64,000 bases of DNA, taken from contig CP166130.1 in assembly GCA_041228335.1 (NCBI GenBank), positions 1,450,638-1,514,637 on the forward strand, written 5' to 3'. The translations under genes and the position numbers were made by a program. This document shows, piece after piece, positions 50,582-60,055 of the stretch (position 1 is the stretch's first letter; each line of letters opens with the position of its first letter). Origin of the DNA: Alphaproteobacteria bacterium LSUCC0684 (GTDB taxonomy: Bacteria > Pseudomonadota > Alphaproteobacteria > Puniceispirillales > UBA1172). Under the pieces are notes generated by a model. That model was not told the DNA's origin and searched no databases. It saw only the letters and a list, made by a program, of their open reading frames with translations.

Positions 50582-50779
50582 CTATAGCGATGCCATCCAG
50601 TTGCTTCGATGCCAGTTGATCACAAATCCAACCGCAACGATGACCACAAGGATCAGCGCATAACTTAACAGACGCTTTGTAGTTGGGGAAATGTCAGTGC
50701 TTTCAATCCTGTCATACGCTTTCCAAGCAACAAACATCAGCACAAGAATACCGACACCACCCACAAGTACTGTATCCAT
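50582..50779 (-). CDS. Small two-helix membrane protein divergent from proteorhodopsin
   Basis: 65 residues, not recognised. Two hydrophobic helices (VGGVGILVLMFVAWKAY and LLSYALILVVIVAVGFVIN) are joined by a short polar loop (DRIESTDISPTTKR) and followed by a short WHRSNWMASL tail. AGGA lies 7 nt before the ATG, supporting translation. It is divergent from proteorhodopsin across a 206-nt AT-rich region and may share regulation with it, or belong to the fab side. No function can be assigned. Confidence 0.65.
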   Translation of the reverse strand: MDTVLVGGVGILVLMFVAWKAYDRIESTDISPTTKRLLSYALILVVIVAVGFVINWHRSNWMASL

Positions 50780-50820: not shown

Positions 50821-50974
50821 TCTAACAAAATTATTTCATATAAAAAACAATATTTTACATAAACATACTTATAAAAAATTAATCTAAATAATTGCCCCGC
50901 CCCATTTCCGACATATTTTGACCTCCAAGGTGAATGAATTTTTTCCATTCATCGTAAATAAACTCAACGTTGAG
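50821..50974 (+). promoter_or_regulatory. Proteorhodopsin upstream region: G-free AT tract and palindrome at the ribosome-binding site
   Basis: Bases 50821-50880 contain seven C and no G on the plus strand, an extreme AT tract that could act as an UP element or flexible promoter DNA; TTTACA and TATAAA-like motifs are present but not at ideal spacing. Just before the gene, CTCAACGTTGAG at 50963-50974 is a perfect 12-bp palindrome that runs into the Shine-Dalgarno GAGGAG, 8 nt before the ATG. It could pair as RNA or bind a dimeric regulator. Confidence 0.45.
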
Positions 50975-50985
50975 GAGTATCTACA

Positions 50986-51756
50986 ATGAAGATGCTGAAT
51001 AAAGTCACTAAACTGGCTATCCCTGCAGCAGCATTCTCTTTTATGCCCATGGTAGCCAATGCAGCTCAAAACCTGCAGCAGGATGATTTTGTCGGAATTT
51101 CCTTCTGGCTTATCTCCATGGCCCTGATTGCCTCCACGGCTTTCTTCTTCCTGGAAACACAGCGTGTTTCCGCCAAGTGGAAGACGTCTCTTGTCGTGTC
51201 GGGTATGGTCACCATGGTTGCTGCTGTTCACTACTTCTACATGCGTGATGTATGGGTGGCGACAGGCGACACACCAACCGTGTATCGTTATATTGACTGG
51301 CTGATTACCGTTCCATTGCTGATGGTTGAATTCTACCTGATCCTGCGGGCGATTACCAACGTGTCATCCGGCGTTTTCTGGCGCCTGATCATTGGTACCA
51401 TGGTGATGCTGGTTGGTGGATATCTCGGCGAAGCCGGATATATCAACATCACCCTCGGCTTCATCATCGGGATGGCAGGCTGGATTTACGTTCTTTATGA
51501 AATCTTTGCCGGTGAAGCAGGCAAGCTGAATGCTGGTTCTGCACCAGCTTCCGTTCAGTCTGCTTTCAACACCATGCGTTGGATTGTAACCATCGGCTGG
51601 GCGATTTATCCGCTTGGCTATTTCTTCGGATACATGACTGCCAGCGCCAGCATGGAAAGCCTGAACGTGATCTACAACCTCGCCGACGTTCTCAACAAGA
51701 TCGCCTTTGGTGTGATCATCTGGAGCGTTGCCGTGTCTGAATCAGAAAAGGCCTAA
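50986..51756 (+). CDS. Proteorhodopsin (green-absorbing type proton pump)
   Basis: 256 residues with a cleavable signal peptide ending near PMVANAA and seven transmembrane helices. The retinal Schiff-base Lys238 is in NLADVLNKIAFG. The proton acceptor Asp104 and donor Glu115 are in RYIDWLITVPLL and MVEFYLIL, so it should pump protons outward. Leu112 occupies the spectral tuning site (position 105 of the first described protein), predicting green absorption. His82 matches the conserved His partner of the acceptor. It heads the retinal pathway genes, and a stable hairpin follows its stop codon. Confidence 0.97.
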   Translation: MKMLNKVTKLAIPAAAFSFMPMVANAAQNLQQDDFVGISFWLISMALIASTAFFFLETQRVSAKWKTSLVVSGMVTMVAAVHYFYMRDVWVATGDTPTVYRYIDWLITVPLLMVEFYLILRAITNVSSGVFWRLIIGTMVMLVGGYLGEAGYINITLGFIIGMAGWIYVLYEIFAGEAGKLNAGSAPASVQSAFNTMRWIVTIGWAIYPLGYFFGYMTASASMESLNVIYNLADVLNKIAFGVIIWSVAVSESEKA

Positions 51757-51765
51757 ACATCAAGT

Positions 51766-51793
51766 TTCGGGCAATCCATCAGGGTTGCCCGAA
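51766..51793 (+). promoter_or_regulatory. Intercistronic hairpin between proteorhodopsin and crtE
   Basis: TTCGGGCAATCC pairs with GGGTTGCCCGAA around the loop ATCA: a 12-bp stem with one G-U pair, starting 10 nt after the opsin stop. No T-run follows, so it is not a full intrinsic terminator. It could protect the opsin message from 3' exonucleases or partly stop transcription, giving more opsin than enzymes. Confidence 0.65.
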
Positions 51794-51831
51794 CTCTCCC
51801 ACGACAATGAAAAGAGCTTAAGGGGGAAATT

Positions 51832-52851
51832 ATGGATGATCTTGCTTTTAATGCCCTCGAGGTGACCAGGCTTAACCCTGCGGCAACCCAAAACGCAGAC
51901 CCCCTTTCAAATATCCGCACCCTTATTCTGAATTCACTGCCTGATGCAGATGAACCGCTTGGCCAGGCCGCGCACCACCATTTTGAAGATCCAGGAAAAA
52001 TGCTGCGCGCCGGACTTGCTCTCTCCACCGGCAAAGCGTTTGGCATTCAGCCCGAAGCCTGCATGAACTGGGCTGCAGCAATTGAAGTTTTGCACAATGC
52101 TTCACTGATCCATGATGATATTTCCGATGGTGACACCGCACGCCGTGGCAGGCCTTCGATCTGGGCTGCCTTTGGTCGTGATACTGCCCTCGCTCTCGGT
52201 GACTGGTTGATTGCACTATCCTTTGAATTTGCTGCAAAAGCCGCGATTGCAGGAAGCAACCCTAAACTTGTTGCAACACTCTCCCATCATATGAAAGACA
52301 CCACTACCGGTCAGGCCATGGAATTTGAAACAACAGGCTACCCTGACTGGAGATGTTATCGACAGATTATCAGGGGCAAGACAGCCCCGCTTTTCATCGC
52401 TCCGGTGGAAGGAATGGCTCTCCTTGCTGGTCGGGACGATATTGTTGAACCGATCACCCAGTATTTTAACGCCGTTGGCACCGCTTACCAGGTGGCGAAT
52501 GATATTCTTAACATCCTCGGGACCGATGGCGCTATCAATCCCGCGTCAGATCTTGCCCGCCGGGCACCAAACGGGGTCATCGTGACCTTTCGAAACCTTC
52601 TGGTTGGAAAAGAAGCCCGGGAATTTGACTCCTGGCTGTTATCAGGAGATCAAGGCCAGGTAGCAATGTGGTATCACCAGCTGCTTCAATCTTCGGCAAT
52701 TAAGGTAACCACCGAGTTGATGAATGGTATCCTGCGGGATGCGGAAAACAAGGCAACCTTTGTCCCCCATGAGTTGAGCCATATTGTCCAGCCTATTCAA
52801 AAACTGCTAACATCGATTTGTTCGCTTTCGCTGGAACACGCCGCTGAATAA
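51832..52851 (+). CDS. crtE: Geranylgeranyl diphosphate synthase (polyprenyl synthetase family)
   Basis: 339 residues. Makes the C20 precursor of carotenoids. The first Asp-rich motif is intact (HDDISDGD, Asp95, Asp96 and Asp99), TTTGQAMEFE and RGKTAPLF follow. The second Asp-rich motif, usually DDxxD, reads NDILN (Asn223 to Asn227), keeping only the central Asp. It is 75 nt after the opsin gene and starts the crtE-crtI-crtB-crtY-blh-fni run. Confidence 0.9.
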   Translation: MDDLAFNALEVTRLNPAATQNADPLSNIRTLILNSLPDADEPLGQAAHHHFEDPGKMLRAGLALSTGKAFGIQPEACMNWAAAIEVLHNASLIHDDISDGDTARRGRPSIWAAFGRDTALALGDWLIALSFEFAAKAAIAGSNPKLVATLSHHMKDTTTGQAMEFETTGYPDWRCYRQIIRGKTAPLFIAPVEGMALLAGRDDIVEPITQYFNAVGTAYQVANDILNILGTDGAINPASDLARRAPNGVIVTFRNLLVGKEAREFDSWLLSGDQGQVAMWYHQLLQSSAIKVTTELMNGILRDAENKATFVPHELSHIVQPIQKLLTSICSLSLEHAAE

Positions 52852-52876
52852 CTTTCCCCTGAGGGATACGAATACC

Positions 52877-54397
52877 ATGAAAAAGCCCGATAGCTACCGG
52901 ACCAACGGCCAGAAAGTTCTGGTGATCGGCGCGGGGTTTGGCGGTATTGCATCAGCCCTGAGGATGCGGGCCCGGGGGTATGATGTCACGCTGGTGGACA
53001 GGATGAACGCCATTGGCGGACGCGCCCAGGTATTTGAACGTGGCGGTTTCCGGCATGATGCTGGTCCGACCGTCGTGACAGCTCCATTTCTTTTTGATGA
53101 ACTCTTCGAACTTTTTGGTGAGAAGCGGGAAGATCACGTCGAGTTTCGACCTCTTGATCCCTGGTACAGGTTTGTTTTCAATACTGGTGAGACTTTCGAT
53201 TATCGGGCAAGCGTTGAAGACACGATGACCGAAATCGAACGGTTTTCGCCTGAAGACAAGAAAGGATATGAGCGCCTGCTGAAAGCATCAAAGGATATCT
53301 TTGAAATCGGCTTTGAACGGCTCGCCGCGCGTCCGTTTACCCGTTTCTTCACGATGGTTCAGCAGATACCGGCTCTGCTCAAGCTCAGAAGCTACATGAC
53401 CGTTGCCCAGATGGTGAACAGTCATATCCGCCACCCGCTACTTCGCCAGGCTTTTTCGATCCATCCACTTCTTGTGGGGGGCAATCCATTTTCGACAACC
53501 TCGATCTATACCCTGATCCATTATCTTGAACGACGCTGGGGCGTCTGGTTCGCCATGGGAGGAACTGGCAAACTGGTGGCCGAATTGATGAATTTGATGG
53601 AACGGCAGGGGATTGATGTCAGGCTTGGTGTTGATATTGAACACATCACCCTTCAGAACGGCCTCGCCAATGGCGCAGTTGCGACCAACGGAGATGTGTT
53701 TGAAGCAGACCGGGTTATCTGCAATGGCGATCCGCCGACTGTCTATGCCCAGATGATGCCTGAGGGCCACAACCGTCCCAAAAAGACTCTTCCTGAACGC
53801 ATGACCCATTATTCCATGGGGCTTTACGTGCTTTTCTTTGGCACCCGCAAATCCTACCCGGATATAGCTCATCACACTATCTGGATGGGGCCGAGATATA
53901 GAGAGCTGCTCAAGGATATTTTTGATCGGAAAATTCTTGCCGATGATTTTTCGCTCTACCTCCATCGCCCAACAGCGACCGATAAAAGTTTCGCCCCGGA
54001 GGGTTGTGACAGTTTCTATGTGCTCTGCCCGGTGCCCAATCTTCTTGGCAAGGTTGACTGGAATATTGAAGGTGAACGTCTCAAGACCCGGATAACCGAC
54101 GCCCTTGAACGCACCATCATGCCGGGCCTTTCCGAAGCGATGTGTGAAGAATTCTGGATGACACCCGAGGATTTCAAAAAGGATTATCGGGCCATGCACG
54201 GCACCGGGTTTTCGATTGCACCCATCTTTTCGCAATCGGCCTGGTTTCGCTACCATAATCGTGACCCGGATATTCCTAATCTGTATTTTGCCGCCGCCGG
54301 GGCCCACCCTGGCGCGGGGATGCCTGGAGTTCTCTGTTCTGCCAAGGTTGTTGAGGCACTGGTGGCAGAAGATGAGGCAACGCATCGGGTGGCGTGA
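52877..54397 (+). CDS. crtI: Phytoene desaturase
   Basis: 506 residues. FAD enzyme that converts phytoene to lycopene by four desaturations. The FAD-binding VIGAGFGGIASALRM and GGRAQVFERGGFRHDAGPTV are at the start, and the bacterial phytoene dehydrogenase signature YFAAAGAHPGAGMPGVL is at the C-terminus. 25 nt separate it from crtE. CrtI-type enzymes that stop at neurosporene exist, but beta-carotene use downstream favours lycopene. Confidence 0.95.
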   Translation: MKKPDSYRTNGQKVLVIGAGFGGIASALRMRARGYDVTLVDRMNAIGGRAQVFERGGFRHDAGPTVVTAPFLFDELFELFGEKREDHVEFRPLDPWYRFVFNTGETFDYRASVEDTMTEIERFSPEDKKGYERLLKASKDIFEIGFERLAARPFTRFFTMVQQIPALLKLRSYMTVAQMVNSHIRHPLLRQAFSIHPLLVGGNPFSTTSIYTLIHYLERRWGVWFAMGGTGKLVAELMNLMERQGIDVRLGVDIEHITLQNGLANGAVATNGDVFEADRVICNGDPPTVYAQMMPEGHNRPKKTLPERMTHYSMGLYVLFFGTRKSYPDIAHHTIWMGPRYRELLKDIFDRKILADDFSLYLHRPTATDKSFAPEGCDSFYVLCPVPNLLGKVDWNIEGERLKTRITDALERTIMPGLSEAMCEEFWMTPEDFKKDYRAMHGTGFSIAPIFSQSAWFRYHNRDPDIPNLYFAAAGAHPGAGMPGVLCSAKVVEALVAEDEATHRVA

Positions 54398-54445
54398 AGA
54401 ATTGATGGCTTGATAGCAATGATCAGAGGCTGATGTGAGGAAACA

Positions 54446-55363
54446 ATGACCGAAGCCATGATCCTAGAGGCAGAAATGACCCTCCGCCAGGAAGGCCGCA
54501 CCTTCCATTGGGCAAGGCGGTTTCTTGGTCAGGGTATGGGGCAGGACGCCGCGAGGCTCTATGCTTTCTGCCGCCTGCTTGATGATCTTGCTGACGGCGA
54601 TCTGCCCAACGGAGCAAGACGGTTGATGTCCATCCGTGACAGCCTGTTGGGAAATACAACCGCCCTTGATCCTGCCCTGCTTGAATTCCGCCCTTTCATA
54701 CATGTTAAAAATTTGCCTGAAGATGTGCTTATCGCTCTCATTGATGGACTTCTGATGGATCAGGAAACAGTCCTGCTCGGTACAAGAGAAGATCTGGCAA
54801 GATACAGCTATCATGTGGCCGGTACTGTCGGGATCCTGATGTGCCGTATCCTCGACTGCGACAGCCCCGAAGCAACGGCGTTTGCCATCGATCTCGGGAT
54901 TGCCATGCAGCTTACCAATATTGCCCGGGATGTGCTTGAGGATGCCCATATGGGACGTCGTTATCTGCCCGGGGACTGGGTTGGCGGAATAACTCCACGC
55001 GAAATCGTCCTCGCCACACAAGAAGCCGACGCCATGATCATCAAACAGGTTGCCGAAGGTGTCATGCGCACCCTGTCACTTGCGGAAACCTATTACGAAA
55101 GCGGGATCATGGGGCTCAGCTATCTTCCCATGAGAGCGCATATCGCCATCCTCATTGCTGCCCGGGCTTACCGTCAGATCGGGCTCCAGCTCGCTCGTCA
55201 AGGTTATAACTGGCAGGACGGAAGGCAGGTGACATCCACGGCAACAAAGGCATGTTCGAGCATCGCCGCCTTACCGCTCATGCGGTACAGATCAAAGGCC
55301 GTACTCCCCCATGATGACCGTCTGCATCATGGCCTTGAAGGCCTTCCCCATGCCCGGGGATAG
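54446..55363 (+). CDS. crtB: Phytoene synthase
   Basis: 305 residues. Condenses two GGPP to phytoene. The first Asp motif is CRLLDDLAD and the second is TNIARDVLEDAHMGRRYLP, both intact. TFHWARRFLGQ near the start corresponds to the usual FYxA segment. The 3' end overlaps crtY by 14 nt. Confidence 0.94.
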   Translation: MTEAMILEAEMTLRQEGRTFHWARRFLGQGMGQDAARLYAFCRLLDDLADGDLPNGARRLMSIRDSLLGNTTALDPALLEFRPFIHVKNLPEDVLIALIDGLLMDQETVLLGTREDLARYSYHVAGTVGILMCRILDCDSPEATAFAIDLGIAMQLTNIARDVLEDAHMGRRYLPGDWVGGITPREIVLATQEADAMIIKQVAEGVMRTLSLAETYYESGIMGLSYLPMRAHIAILIAARAYRQIGLQLARQGYNWQDGRQVTSTATKACSSIAALPLMRYRSKAVLPHDDRLHHGLEGLPHARG

Positions 55364-56480
55364 GATCAGGGTTGGAATACTTGGCGGGGGTGGAGCTGGT
55401 CTCAGCCTAGCCCGCCGACTTGCCGGCATGGAGATGCTGGATCTTATTATTGTCGACTCGCAGAAACCCCGCGATCGCGCCGATCACAGCTGGGGGTTCT
55501 GGCATACGCAAGGCATGGATGATGCCTTTCACATGGCACGGAAACATTGGCACCGATGGCAGATCATCACCGAAACCGGAACAGCAGATCAAAGGGCGGA
55601 ACGGTTCGCCTATGCCGCAATTGAAAGTAAGGCATGGCTTACGGATTGCCGGCTTAAATCCATGAAATCCGGGGCAGAGATCCATCCCTACCATGTGCAT
55701 GCTGTTCGCAGGACAGATTCAACCTTCGTGCTTGAAACTGATGATGGTGAGATCACGGTGGATGCGGTTTACGACAGTCGCCCACCCCCCTTACCAGAGG
55801 GGATCATGCTCCAGCATTTTCTGGGCTGGGAAATCGAGACCGAACATCCCTGTTTTGATGAAAGCACGGCTGTGCTCATGGATTTTCGATGTGATCAGTC
55901 CCGCGGCGTGCATTTTATCTATATCCTGCCCTATTCGGCGCATCGAGCGCTCGTGGAATCCACCATGTTTACCCCAACTCTAGAAGAAAACACCTTCTAT
56001 GAAAACGCGATTGACCGATATTGCCGAGAGATCCTTGCATCAGGGCAATATCGAATTCTGCGGCGGGAAAAAGGTGTGATTCCCATGGGGGTTTTTGCCC
56101 CGAGAGATCCGGAACTGCCCTCCATAGGCGGCAATGGCGGGGCCATCCGGCCATCGAGCGGTTATGCCTTTGCCTTTATCCAGAAACAGGCAGACGCCAT
56201 TCGTGCCTGCATCACCGGCGGGGAGATTCACGCCTCAACACTCCCGCATCAACCTGTTGATCTCTGGATGGATCGCATATTCCTGCGAGTCCTCAGACGA
56301 TTTCCAGGCATTGCCCCACGCCTCTTTCTGGCCATTGGCAAAGCCTTGAACGGAGATGCCATGGCACTTTTCATGGCTGGTGAAGCAACATGGAGTATTC
56401 GCCTTAAAGTGATACTGGCGATGCCGAAATGGCCATTTATCCTTGCCCTGGCAGGCGTGGGAAGGCATCGCCATGGTTAG
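55350..56480 (+). CDS. crtY: Lycopene beta-cyclase
   Basis: 376 residues of the bacterial CrtY family. Forms both beta rings of beta-carotene. The dinucleotide fold GILGGGGAGLSLARRL is at the start, followed by DHSWGFW, and FDFRCDQ-type and GGNGGAIRPSSGYAF segments further on. The ATG at 55350 is chosen because AAGG lies 8 nt upstream; the frame is open from 55311 but has no ribosome-binding site there. The end overlaps blh by 8 nt. Confidence 0.93.
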   Translation: MPGDRIRVGILGGGGAGLSLARRLAGMEMLDLIIVDSQKPRDRADHSWGFWHTQGMDDAFHMARKHWHRWQIITETGTADQRAERFAYAAIESKAWLTDCRLKSMKSGAEIHPYHVHAVRRTDSTFVLETDDGEITVDAVYDSRPPPLPEGIMLQHFLGWEIETEHPCFDESTAVLMDFRCDQSRGVHFIYILPYSAHRALVESTMFTPTLEENTFYENAIDRYCREILASGQYRILRREKGVIPMGVFAPRDPELPSIGGNGGAIRPSSGYAFAFIQKQADAIRACITGGEIHASTLPHQPVDLWMDRIFLRVLRRFPGIAPRLFLAIGKALNGDAMALFMAGEATWSIRLKVILAMPKWPFILALAGVGRHRHG

Positions 56481-57342
56481 CCCCGGCCTGATCGAAACCC
56501 TCGGCATGGTCAATGTGATCAGCCTTCTTGCGGTGGTTGCCATCGGCCTGCCCCATGGCGCGATGGATGGCGCGGTGGCGCTGGCGCTCGGCTATGGCCG
56601 CAACTGGCCCAGGATGGGAGCATTTATTCTCGGCTATATCGCGCTGGCCGGTCTGGTGGTGATGTTCTGGCTTGGTTTTCCCGTGCTGGCGCTGGCGCTG
56701 TTTTTATTGATCAGCCTTGTGCATTTCGGCAACGGGGATACCGATACAATACATCCCTTGCATCGCTTGGTGCAGATACTCTGTCATGGCGGGATCGTGG
56801 TGGTGGCAATCCCGCTTTTTCACCCAAATATCACCAGTGAGCTTTTCTCCTATCTTTCAGGTCCGGATGCCGTGGTGATCCGGTCTTATCTCTATCCCCT
56901 TGCTATGGTGATAACTGTAGCGGGGCTGATTTACGCTGGCATTGCCATACGCATTCCTTCAATGAGGCTTCGGTTCCTCGAATTTATCGGGCTTCTGATG
57001 TGTGTATGGGCCCTGCCTCCGCTTGCGGGTTTCGCCATCTATTTTGCCGGAGTTCATACCCCGCGACATGTGCGGCGGATTTTCCTCAAGCTTCGCGCCC
57101 ATGATCCGGCCGTTTCACCGTTTCGGCTGACGGCTCTATTTACATCGGTCACCTGGATTGGGGGGGCCTTAGCGTATTTCTATCTGGCAGAGCGCATGGC
57201 CGTTGATGCCGCCGCTTTTCAGGTCATCTTCATTGGTCTTGCCGCGCTGACCTTTCCCCATATGATCTTGATCGATGCGGTCTTTCGCCCCAAGATGAGA
57301 GACTTAGTTACGGAAACCCCTGATCATGACCAGAACCGCTGA
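56473..57342 (+). CDS. blh: Beta-carotene 15,15'-dioxygenase (Brp/Blh)
   Basis: 289 residues, an integral membrane enzyme that splits beta-carotene into two retinals, the chromophore of the opsin. Conserved His that should bind iron: His28 (GLPHGAMDG), His84 (LVHFGNGD), His195 and His199 (GVHTPRHVRR), and a further His263 (FPHMILID). At least six hydrophobic helices are visible. The ATG at 56473 overlaps crtY and has AAGG 7 nt upstream. It overlaps fni by 17 nt. Confidence 0.94.
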   Translation: MVSPGLIETLGMVNVISLLAVVAIGLPHGAMDGAVALALGYGRNWPRMGAFILGYIALAGLVVMFWLGFPVLALALFLLISLVHFGNGDTDTIHPLHRLVQILCHGGIVVVAIPLFHPNITSELFSYLSGPDAVVIRSYLYPLAMVITVAGLIYAGIAIRIPSMRLRFLEFIGLLMCVWALPPLAGFAIYFAGVHTPRHVRRIFLKLRAHDPAVSPFRLTALFTSVTWIGGALAYFYLAERMAVDAAAFQVIFIGLAALTFPHMILIDAVFRPKMRDLVTETPDHDQNR

Positions 57343-58354
57343 CCGTAAGGATATCCACCTTGATCTTGCCCGCGCCCCCCAGTCAAGGTCTGGCATCTCC
57401 CATGATCTTGACCGGGTGCAGCTCGAACACAATGCCATGCCCGAATGTCATTTCAACGAGATTGATCTGACCTGCCGGTTTCTGGGCCACCGGCTATCCA
57501 TGCCCTTGATGATCGGCGCCATGACCGGCGGAACCGACCGTGCTGATGCCATCAACTGCCTACTTGCCGAGGCGGCAAATGAGATCGGCATTGCACTTGC
57601 CGTGGGATCACAGCGTGCCAGCCTCGAAGCAGGCCGTGATCAGTCAGGGCTGCGCGCCAATGCGCCAAATATTCCGATTATTGGCAATCTTGGCGGTGTT
57701 CAACTTGCCCGTCCGGGCGGGATTGACCTTGCCAGACGCGCTGTTGATGCCATCGAGGCAAACGCTATGGCAATTCATCTAAACCCCTTGCAGGAAATTG
57801 CCCAGCCTGAAGGCGATCACGACTGGCGCGGCGTTGAAGAGGCGATTGCTGCCTTGTGCGATACCCTGCCCTGCCCTGTCATCGTAAAGGAAGTGGGGGC
57901 CGGGATATCAGCTTCCGTTGCCGCAAGGCTGATGGCGGCAGGCGTCCGTTATGTTGATGCAGCTGGACTTGGAGGAACGAACTGGACCCGCATTGAAACC
58001 CAACGCAGAAATGGCGATGAAGACATCTTTACCCCCTTCCTTGACTGGGGAATTCCCACCCTTGATGCCATCGTTCAGATACGCTCGCACCTGCCTGATC
58101 TCGGGCTCATTGCCTCGGGCGGAATACGGCATGGACTGGATGCGGCAAGAGCACTCTGGCTAGGGGCGGATATGGTTGCTGCCGCCGGCCATTTCCTCAC
58201 CCTCGCCGAGGATGAGAAAACTCGCCTGACGCCTGAAAAACTTGGGCAGGGACTGGAAAACTGGCAACTGCAGATGCGCATCTGTCTGTTTCTGACGGGC
58301 AGCCGGAATATCGCCGAATTTCGGCGTGCCAGAGGGGTGATAAAAAATTCCTGA
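57326..58354 (+). CDS. fni: Type 2 isopentenyl-diphosphate delta-isomerase
   Basis: 342 residues. FMN-dependent enzyme that interconverts IPP and DMAPP, supplying GGPP synthesis. RKDIHLDL near the start, IGAMTGGT, HLNPLQE, VKEVGAGIS and ASGGIRHG are family motifs. It is the last gene of the coupled retinal cluster, overlapping blh by 17 nt. Type 2 isomerases are common in proteorhodopsin cassettes. Confidence 0.95.
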   Translation: MTRTADRKDIHLDLARAPQSRSGISHDLDRVQLEHNAMPECHFNEIDLTCRFLGHRLSMPLMIGAMTGGTDRADAINCLLAEAANEIGIALAVGSQRASLEAGRDQSGLRANAPNIPIIGNLGGVQLARPGGIDLARRAVDAIEANAMAIHLNPLQEIAQPEGDHDWRGVEEAIAALCDTLPCPVIVKEVGAGISASVAARLMAAGVRYVDAAGLGGTNWTRIETQRRNGDEDIFTPFLDWGIPTLDAIVQIRSHLPDLGLIASGGIRHGLDAARALWLGADMVAAAGHFLTLAEDEKTRLTPEKLGQGLENWQLQMRICLFLTGSRNIAEFRRARGVIKNS

Positions 58355-58534: not shown

Positions 58535-60055
58535 ATGGGCAATTTGCGTCTTGTGCTGGGCGACCAGTTGAGCACTTCCCTTGCATCGCTTGCAGACCTC
58601 AAGATGGGTGACACGGTGCTGATGGCCGAAGTCGCGGAAGAGGCCGGATATGTCAACCATCACCAGAAGAAGATAGCGTTCATTTTTTCGGCCATGCGGC
58701 ATTTTGCCGAAGAGCTTCGGCAGGATGGCGTGAATGTCGTCTATGTAAAGTTTGATGATCCGGAAAATACCGGCAGCCTGCGCGGTGAGGTTGAACGAGC
58801 TGTTCATCGCATCAACCCTTCGCGGCTTATCCTGACCGAACCAGGCGAGTTCCGGCTTCGTGAGGAATTCGGCACCTGGGAAGATGTCTTTGGCCTTTCG
58901 GTCGAGCTCCGCCCTGATACGCGATTTCTTACCACCATTCAGGCGTTTTCATCCTGGGCAGAGGGCCGAAAATCCCTGCGGATGGAGTTCTTCTACCGTC
59001 AGGCCCGCCGCCAGCATCAGATACTGATGAATGGCGAGGACCCCGAAGGCGGCCAATGGAATTTCGATCAGGAAAACCGGCAACCGCCCCGGGAAGGGGT
59101 GAAGCCTCCGGCCACGTTCAGGGTCGAACCTGATGCCATAACACGGGACGTGCTTGATCTGGTCCGCCAGAAGTTCAGCCACCATTTCGGGCATCTCGAC
59201 GGGTTTGGATATGCGGTTTGCCGGAAGGATGCGCTCAAGGCGGTTGATCTATTCATTGAGGAACGTCTGCCGCATTTCGGCACCTGGCAGGATGCGATGG
59301 TAGATGGCGAGCCCTGGATGTATCACGCGCATATCGGGCTTTACCTGAATGCCGGTCTTCTGCTCCCCCTTGAAGTGATCCGGCGTGCGGAACAGGCCTG
59401 GCATGAAGGAAAAGCCCCGCTTAACGCGGTTGAAGGATTTATACGCCAGATCCTTGGCTGGCGCGAATATGTGCGCGGAATCTACTGGCTCAACATGCCG
59501 CAATACGCGAGCGCCAATGCCCTTGGCGCCCATCGCCCCCTGCCTGATTTCTACTGGACGGCTGATACCGACATGCGGTGCCTTCAGCAATGCGTTACCG
59601 AAACCCGGGACAACGCCTATGCGCATCATATCCAGCGGCTCATGGTGCTGGGAAATTTTGCCTTGCTGGCGGGGATAGACCCTGCCGAAGTCAATGCCTG
59701 GTATCTGGCTGTCTATGCCGATGCCTATGAATGGGTTGAACTGCCCAATGTCAGCGGCATGACCCTCTATGCTGATGACGGGTATCTAGCCAGCAAACCC
59801 TATGCCGCAAGCGGCGCCTATATCAACAGAATGTCCACCTATTGCCGACGCTGCCGATACAAGGTTGCCGCCAAGAGCGGCCCGGATGCCTGCCCGTTCA
59901 ACTACCTTTACTGGGATTTTCTGATCCGCAACCGCGGCAGGCTGAAGAACAACCCCCGGATGGGAATGCCGTACCGGACGCTGGACCGGATGGATGCAGG
60001 CAAAATCGAAATCATCCGACATGACAGTCGGCGATTTCTCGATGGACTGGACTGA
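58535..60055 (+). CDS. Iron-sulfur cryptochrome/(6-4) photolyase family protein (PhrB/FeS-BCP)
   Basis: 506 residues. The N-terminal Rossmann-like domain starts LRLVLGDQLS. Four Cys that should bind a [4Fe-4S] cluster are Cys349 (DMRCLQQ), Cys437 and Cys440 (TYCRRC) and Cys453 (DACPFNYLYW), the spacing known from Agrobacterium PhrB. GWREYVRGIYW and the helical FAD domain follow the family. PhrB repairs (6-4) photoproducts with light; relatives act as photoreceptors. The ATG at 58535 lacks a clear ribosome-binding site. It lies on the same strand as the retinal cluster. Confidence 0.92.
   Translation: MGNLRLVLGDQLSTSLASLADLKMGDTVLMAEVAEEAGYVNHHQKKIAFIFSAMRHFAEELRQDGVNVVYVKFDDPENTGSLRGEVERAVHRINPSRLILTEPGEFRLREEFGTWEDVFGLSVELRPDTRFLTTIQAFSSWAEGRKSLRMEFFYRQARRQHQILMNGEDPEGGQWNFDQENRQPPREGVKPPATFRVEPDAITRDVLDLVRQKFSHHFGHLDGFGYAVCRKDALKAVDLFIEERLPHFGTWQDAMVDGEPWMYHAHIGLYLNAGLLLPLEVIRRAEQAWHEGKAPLNAVEGFIRQILGWREYVRGIYWLNMPQYASANALGAHRPLPDFYWTADTDMRCLQQCVTETRDNAYAHHIQRLMVLGNFALLAGIDPAEVNAWYLAVYADAYEWVELPNVSGMTLYADDGYLASKPYAASGAYINRMSTYCRRCRYKVAAKSGPDACPFNYLYWDFLIRNRGRLKNNPRMGMPYRTLDRMDAGKIEIIRHDSRRFLDGLD

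Follow-up and report, generated by a model that had tools for sequence, protein, structure and literature searches.

A SAR116 proteorhodopsin-retinal cassette with a conserved stem-loop behind the opsin gene and an atypical CrtE motif

Introduction

In SAR116 bacteria, the retinal gene cluster is located beside the proteorhodopsin (PR) gene on the same strand, one group excepted, and the isomerase gene is lacking in a low-GC subclade (PMC8547437). LSUCC0684 is a SAR116 isolate belonging to subclade Ic (PMC12262181). In this study, we sought to characterize a putative PR-retinal cassette located in a 64,000-nucleotide stretch of its closed genome of 2,704,644 bp (G000:C1:1450638-1514637, hereafter the window; positions given without a contig are counted from its first letter). 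The cassette comprises the opsin, crtE, crtI, crtB, crtY, blh and fni genes and had been proposed in a preliminary description of this DNA. Our analysis identified it as a SAR116-type PR-retinal cassette, a further copy of an already known one. The added value lies in a stem-loop between opsin and crtE, an unusual motif in CrtE and a small divergent open reading frame (ORF) upstream of opsin. Taken as a whole, the locus probably provides retinal synthesis and a green-light proton pump, with expression skewed by the stem-loop.

Gene content and distribution of the cassette

The seven genes are all located on the plus strand as intact ORFs, each starting with ATG and containing no internal stop. 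The opsin gene (50986..51756, 256 aa; Pfam Bac_rhodopsin, 2.9e-48) is followed by crtE, encoding a trans-isoprenyl diphosphate synthase (51832..52851, 339 aa; polyprenyl_synt, PF00348, 7.5e-44), crtI, encoding a phytoene desaturase (52877..54397, 506 aa; crtI_fam, 549.9 bits for a cut-off of 238), and crtB, encoding a phytoene synthase (54446..55363, 305 aa; SQS_PSY, 2.7e-52) in which both Asp motifs are intact. Next come crtY for a lycopene cyclase (55350..56480, 376 aa; Lycopene_cycl, 1.9e-48), whose mechanical ORF starts at an in-frame ATG at 55311, blh for a beta-carotene 15,15'-dioxygenase (56473..57342, 289 aa; BCD, 9.3e-53; blh_monoox, TIGR03753, 196.4 bits for a cut-off of 95.25) and fni for a type 2 isopentenyl-diphosphate isomerase (57326..58354, 342 aa; IPP_isom_2/TIGR02151, 358.6 bits for a cut-off of 281.3). 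Spacers of 75, 25 and 48 nt separate opsin from crtE, crtE from crtI and crtI from crtB, and the last three joints are overlaps of 14 (crtB/crtY), 8 (crtY/blh) and 17 nt (blh/fni). The order, spacers and overlaps initially reported were all exact by ORF reading. The gene identities were upheld as well, since the homology search placed none of the seven in a different family and the sequence contains no in-frame break.

The opsin, CrtI, Blh and Fni proteins score above curated thresholds. CrtE, CrtB and CrtY fall below the NCBIfam curated cut-offs for exact function, and their names are therefore based on Pfam family, motifs and gene context. Blh contains the conserved histidines H38, H94, H205 and H209 (numbered from a TTG at 56443), some of which bind the iron. 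A search against Rfam returned a tRNA as sole match.

To place the cassette among its relatives, we used a comparison set of 61 genomes of the order, including that of LSUCC0684, distributed in four families (f1 to f4). Opsin is found in 55 of the 61 genomes. The complete order PR-crtE-crtI-crtB-crtY-blh-fni is present in every cassette-bearing genome sampled from f1 and f3, some of them cut by contig ends, and a collinearity extending across both families is not due to chance. The order PR-crtE-crtI-crtB-crtY-blh also recurs in other alphaproteobacterial families. Given the same order in relatives and the published SAR116 retinal clusters, the cassette is an ordinary one. Family f4 carries PR-crtI-crtB-crtY-blh without crtE and fni (loci L142-L148 and L161), and family f2 carries a bare opsin, with no blh match. 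One of the f1-f4 set, genome G016, is taken here to be that of Candidatus Puniceispirillum marinum IMCC1322.

The opsin carries the Schiff-base lysine K238 and the residues D104, T108 and E115, which form a DTE motif. Its L112 corresponds to position 105, where Leu is associated with green tuning (PMC5864233), and by this rule the opsin is predicted to be green-tuned. Among 35 readable SAR116 opsins, the one in the window included, 22 have Leu105 (green) and 13 have Gln105 (blue). These counts are at odds with the near-universal blue tuning published for SAR116, where 90 of 91 opsins were reported as blue (PMC8547437).

A conserved stem-loop between opsin and crtE

The preliminary description presented the seven genes as consecutive. 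The order holds, but the evenly read operon that this suggests probably does not, as a stem-loop with a 12-bp stem and a 4-nt loop (51766..51793, plus strand) separates opsin from crtE and has a counterpart in every relative tested. We folded the first 70 nt past the stop codon of each gene at every cassette joint and calculated z values against dinucleotide shuffles. At the joint between opsin and the next gene, stems reached at least 9 bp in 32 out of 32 cases, with a median stem of 12 bp and a median z of -4.5. The five remaining joints had such stems in 1-8 of 26-35 cases (median z from -0.3 to +0.25), the folded stretch being coding sequence where genes overlap. The stem sequences are wholly different between lineages, while the structure and its position are kept. 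A comparable 3' structure follows most opsins read in other families, with none at L295 and a weak one at L195.

Because the stem-loop behind opsin is conserved, the cassette is probably unevenly expressed, the opsin message being stabilised or partly terminated and the pigment genes read at a lower level. The likeliest role of the structure would be to raise the opsin message over that of the pigment genes. The stem-loop could also be a plain terminator of opsin, with the six pigment genes forming a separate transcription unit under their own promoter. In 15 of the 32 joints the stem is followed by a U-tract (at least 5 T in 8 bases), corresponding to classical intrinsic terminators, and the bare opsins of f2 finish in the same type of structure, both of which favor this explanation. 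In LSUCC0684, however, the stem is followed by 2 T in 8 bases, short of the GC-rich stem plus U-tract that defines an intrinsic terminator, and the 75-nt spacer leaves scant room for a promoter before crtE, where none stands out. Separate transcription of the pigment genes is thus possible, though rather doubtful.

Fate of beta-carotene and the neighboring photolyase gene

The absence of a ketolase or hydroxylase gene, first noted for the locus, extends to the whole genome, in which no CrtW/CrtO ketolase and no CrtZ-like hydroxylase was detected at curated thresholds. Matches to FA_hydroxylase/FA_desaturase were rejected as ketolases (26 bits for a CrtW cut-off of 350), and the FA_hydroxylase matches were rejected as CrtZ, their frames of 256-513 residues being too long; CrtZ has about 170 residues. 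A CrtO-like FAD oxidoreductase encoded outside the window (G000:C1:1284277-1285860) reaches 282 bits for a CrtO cut-off of 1000 and is probably not a ketolase. Two similar genes of the FA_hydroxylase/sterol desaturase type are located outside the window (G000:C1:1516927-1517313 and 791827-792216), one of the two about 8 kb downstream from the cassette.

A gene encoding a homolog of FeS-BCP (6-4) photolyases and CryB, with a DPRP domain, is located 180 nt downstream from fni (58535..60055, plus strand). The closest solved structures are PhrB (3.9e-190) and CryB (1.3e-167), both matched over the full length. CryB of Rhodobacter is a regulator of photosynthesis. The earlier statement that no light-regulator gene is present therefore needs qualifying, though a role as (6-4) photolyase is more probable for the homolog than one as regulator. 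Among the loci read, its adjacency to the cassette recurs just in G005, and there with a split gene; in the other genomes with contigs that allow a judgement, the photolyase gene is remote from the cassette.

Beta-carotene might also be an end product in its own right, used for photoprotection or as an antenna, besides serving as retinal precursor. Nothing forces all of it through Blh, and a photolyase gene beside the cassette hints at light stress at this locus. Against this stand the lack of CrtZ, CrtW and CrtO above curated cut-offs and the Phe that the opsin carries at what we take to be the site occupied by Gly in carotenoid-binding xanthorhodopsins. A second role of beta-carotene consequently appears unlikely.

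The CrtE active site

CrtE contains a canonical first aspartate-rich motif (FARM) DDxxD (D95, D96 and D99), with Ala-Ser at positions -5/-4. The second aspartate-rich motif (SARM) is NDxxN (N223 D224 x x N227) in 26 of 26 SAR116 copies and thereby departs from the canonical DDxxD/N; the CrtE score with the NCBIfam equivalog NF045685 is 81 bits for a cut-off of 460. Positional CrtE homologs adjoining crtI in other families carry DDxxD. A phylum-wide search added just three cassette-type homologs, all with DDxxD, and a scan of genome contigs with CrtE gave one remote match. The SARM is NDIKN in G209, a genome outside the order, and all 27 ND copies group together in a single clade (FastTree support 0.80). 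In this alphaproteobacterium (loci L166 and L191), the NDxxN crtE-crtI-crtB-crtY-blh cluster is located about 90 kb from opsin, and the opsin match contains an internal stop.

In the SARM, the first Asp is normally a Mg2+ ligand, and the human geranylgeranyl diphosphate (GGPP) synthase has DDxxN at this place (PMC7484799). A fungal GGPP synthase mutant, D250N/N254S, keeps about 40% of its activity, and NDxxS motifs are a mark of fungal terpene synthases resembling isoprenyl diphosphate synthases (PMC7484799). Several observations suggest that CrtE most likely functions as a GGPP synthase in spite of its unusual motif. Neither the FARM nor the substrate-site Lys/Arg residues vary, and the ratio of nonsynonymous to synonymous substitution rates (dN/dS) is about 0.05-0.1 in close pairs, dN being far below dS, which indicates purifying selection. 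The two other synthases of the same fold found in the genome are of the IspB type and of the IspA type, the latter with Tyr at -5, and the activity left in the fungal mutant points in the same direction. In f4 genomes, too, IspA has Tyr at -5, as expected of a farnesyl diphosphate (FPP) synthase. We retain the name crtE on account of gene position and probable function; it does not denote a proven GGPP synthase. The earlier statement that the locus holds all that is needed for retinal is accordingly right as to the completeness of the gene set and presumes that a CrtE with NDxxN makes GGPP. A single-sequence structure prediction of CrtE was unusable (predicted local distance difference test, pLDDT, 37).

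It is quite improbable that CrtE has ceased to be a GGPP synthase and become terpene synthase-like, or an inactive partner of an IspA that supplies GGPP: the motif is derived and lineage-wide, it recalls the NDxxS of the fungal enzymes and f4 manages without crtE, but the invariant FARM and substrate-binding residues, the strong purifying selection, the missing Ser/Glu of the NSE triad, the activity of the fungal double mutant and the resemblance of IspA to FPP synthase all argue against it.

A small divergent ORF and the opsin leader

A 65-aa ORF predicted to encode a two-helix membrane hairpin is located divergently upstream of opsin (50582..50779, minus strand). It matches no known Pfam family above cut-off, and a helical hairpin is predicted with confidence by AlphaFold (pLDDT 88). 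Homologs are found beside opsin in f1-f4 and in family f34, with a variable gene behind. The ORF has a match in 35 genomes of the order, LSUCC0684 included, and about 27 of these adjoin opsin by coordinates; the opsin-adjacent copy contains in-frame stops in two genomes (G041 and G048). It is absent from five of the six opsin-less genomes, the sixth (G049) giving a weak, doubtful match. In f3 and f4 combined, an intact copy anywhere in the genome accompanies 11 of 14 Leu105 opsins and 1 of 9 Gln105 opsins (Fisher P 0.003, relatedness ignored), and most blue-tuned opsins of these families have either no such ORF or a broken one beside them. In G016, our presumed IMCC1322 genome, it is unlinked to the cassette, about 330 kb away.

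Since the ORF keeps its place beside opsin in members of f1-f4 and in f34 despite changes in the gene behind it, and since most blue-tuned opsins of f3 and f4 lack an intact neighboring copy, the two-helix protein might tentatively be seen as a dedicated partner of this type of PR. At L250 and L251, two loci of f34, the small ORF is located between the divergent opsin and an IspA-type synthase gene; at L250 it leads into the synthase gene, on the strand they share, across a gap of 2 nt.

A perfect palindrome, CTCAACGTTGAG (50963..50974), runs into the Shine-Dalgarno sequence of opsin and is a possible operator or leader hairpin. Most SAR116 lineages have a palindrome of lineage-specific sequence at the same place before the opsin Shine-Dalgarno sequence. 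In genus g2 it is CTCAATATTGAG, a symmetric CG to TA change separating g1/g3 from g2. The upstream neighbor of the locus is fabD, in divergent orientation.

Discussion

In the model that we favor, Fni would provide dimethylallyl diphosphate, CrtE would form GGPP despite its NDxxN motif, CrtB, CrtI and CrtY would lead to beta-carotene, and Blh would cleave beta-carotene into two retinals. Retinal would then bind K238 of a green-tuned DTE proton pump, allowing the membrane to be charged in the light. One promoter upstream of opsin presumably drives the whole unit. The stem-loop would keep the opsin message above that of the pigment enzymes. In LSUCC0684, which lacks a U-tract, it would do so by stabilising the 3' end, and in relatives with a U-tract by partial termination. 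Such an arrangement fits a demand for pump molecules in large numbers and for few copies of the enzymes.

Several points weigh against this model. The SARM of CrtE is non-canonical at a Mg2+-binding residue, and the f4 cassette, without crtE or fni, offers no evident source of GGPP in that family. In addition, the stem-loop of LSUCC0684 is not a canonical terminator, given the absence of a U-tract, and a sigma-70 promoter scan gave a site count not above that of shuffles.

The gene set indicates that LSUCC0684, a SAR116 strain in culture, is able to produce its own retinal and is a self-sufficient PR phototroph. A stem-loop restricted to one joint bears on how bacteria hold opsin in excess over the retinal enzymes. 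The CrtE motif bears on whether a natural lineage can use a GGPP synthase whose metal-binding SARM contains Asn, and the small ORF on whether PR has an overlooked small membrane partner. An open-access literature search, with most subscription papers outside its scope, found no earlier account of a stem-loop or a small ORF beside PR; the opsin/crtE RNA hairpin and the unusual CrtE active site appear to be previously undescribed.

Among known systems, the SAR116 cluster of IMCC1322 (L125 in G016; PMC8547437) matches the LSUCC0684 cassette in its seven genes, their order and their placement on a single strand. Its flanking genes are different, as LSUCC0684 has fabD and the small ORF upstream and the photolyase gene downstream. 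Other alphaproteobacterial cassettes, where fully read (f12, f139 and f154), have their first six genes in this order too; at the f108 locus, the PR-crtE-crtI part alone was read. In f12, f108, f139 and f154, CrtE retains DDxxD, unlike the NDxxN of SAR116, and the other alphaproteobacterial loci read show no fni match adjoining blh, in contrast to LSUCC0684. CrtE resembles canonical GGPP synthases of PF00348 in its family match, its FARM and the small residues preceding it, and differs by NDxxN where these have a SARM of DDxxD or DDxxN. In the puf operon of Rhodobacter capsulatus, an intercistronic hairpin raises the message for light-harvesting proteins (Klug et al. 1987, as cited in PMC6238624). 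The puf genes are unrelated to the opsin cassette. If our interpretation holds, the two systems would be alike in that a hairpin behind the gene of an abundant photosystem protein makes the message of this gene more plentiful than those of the genes downstream.

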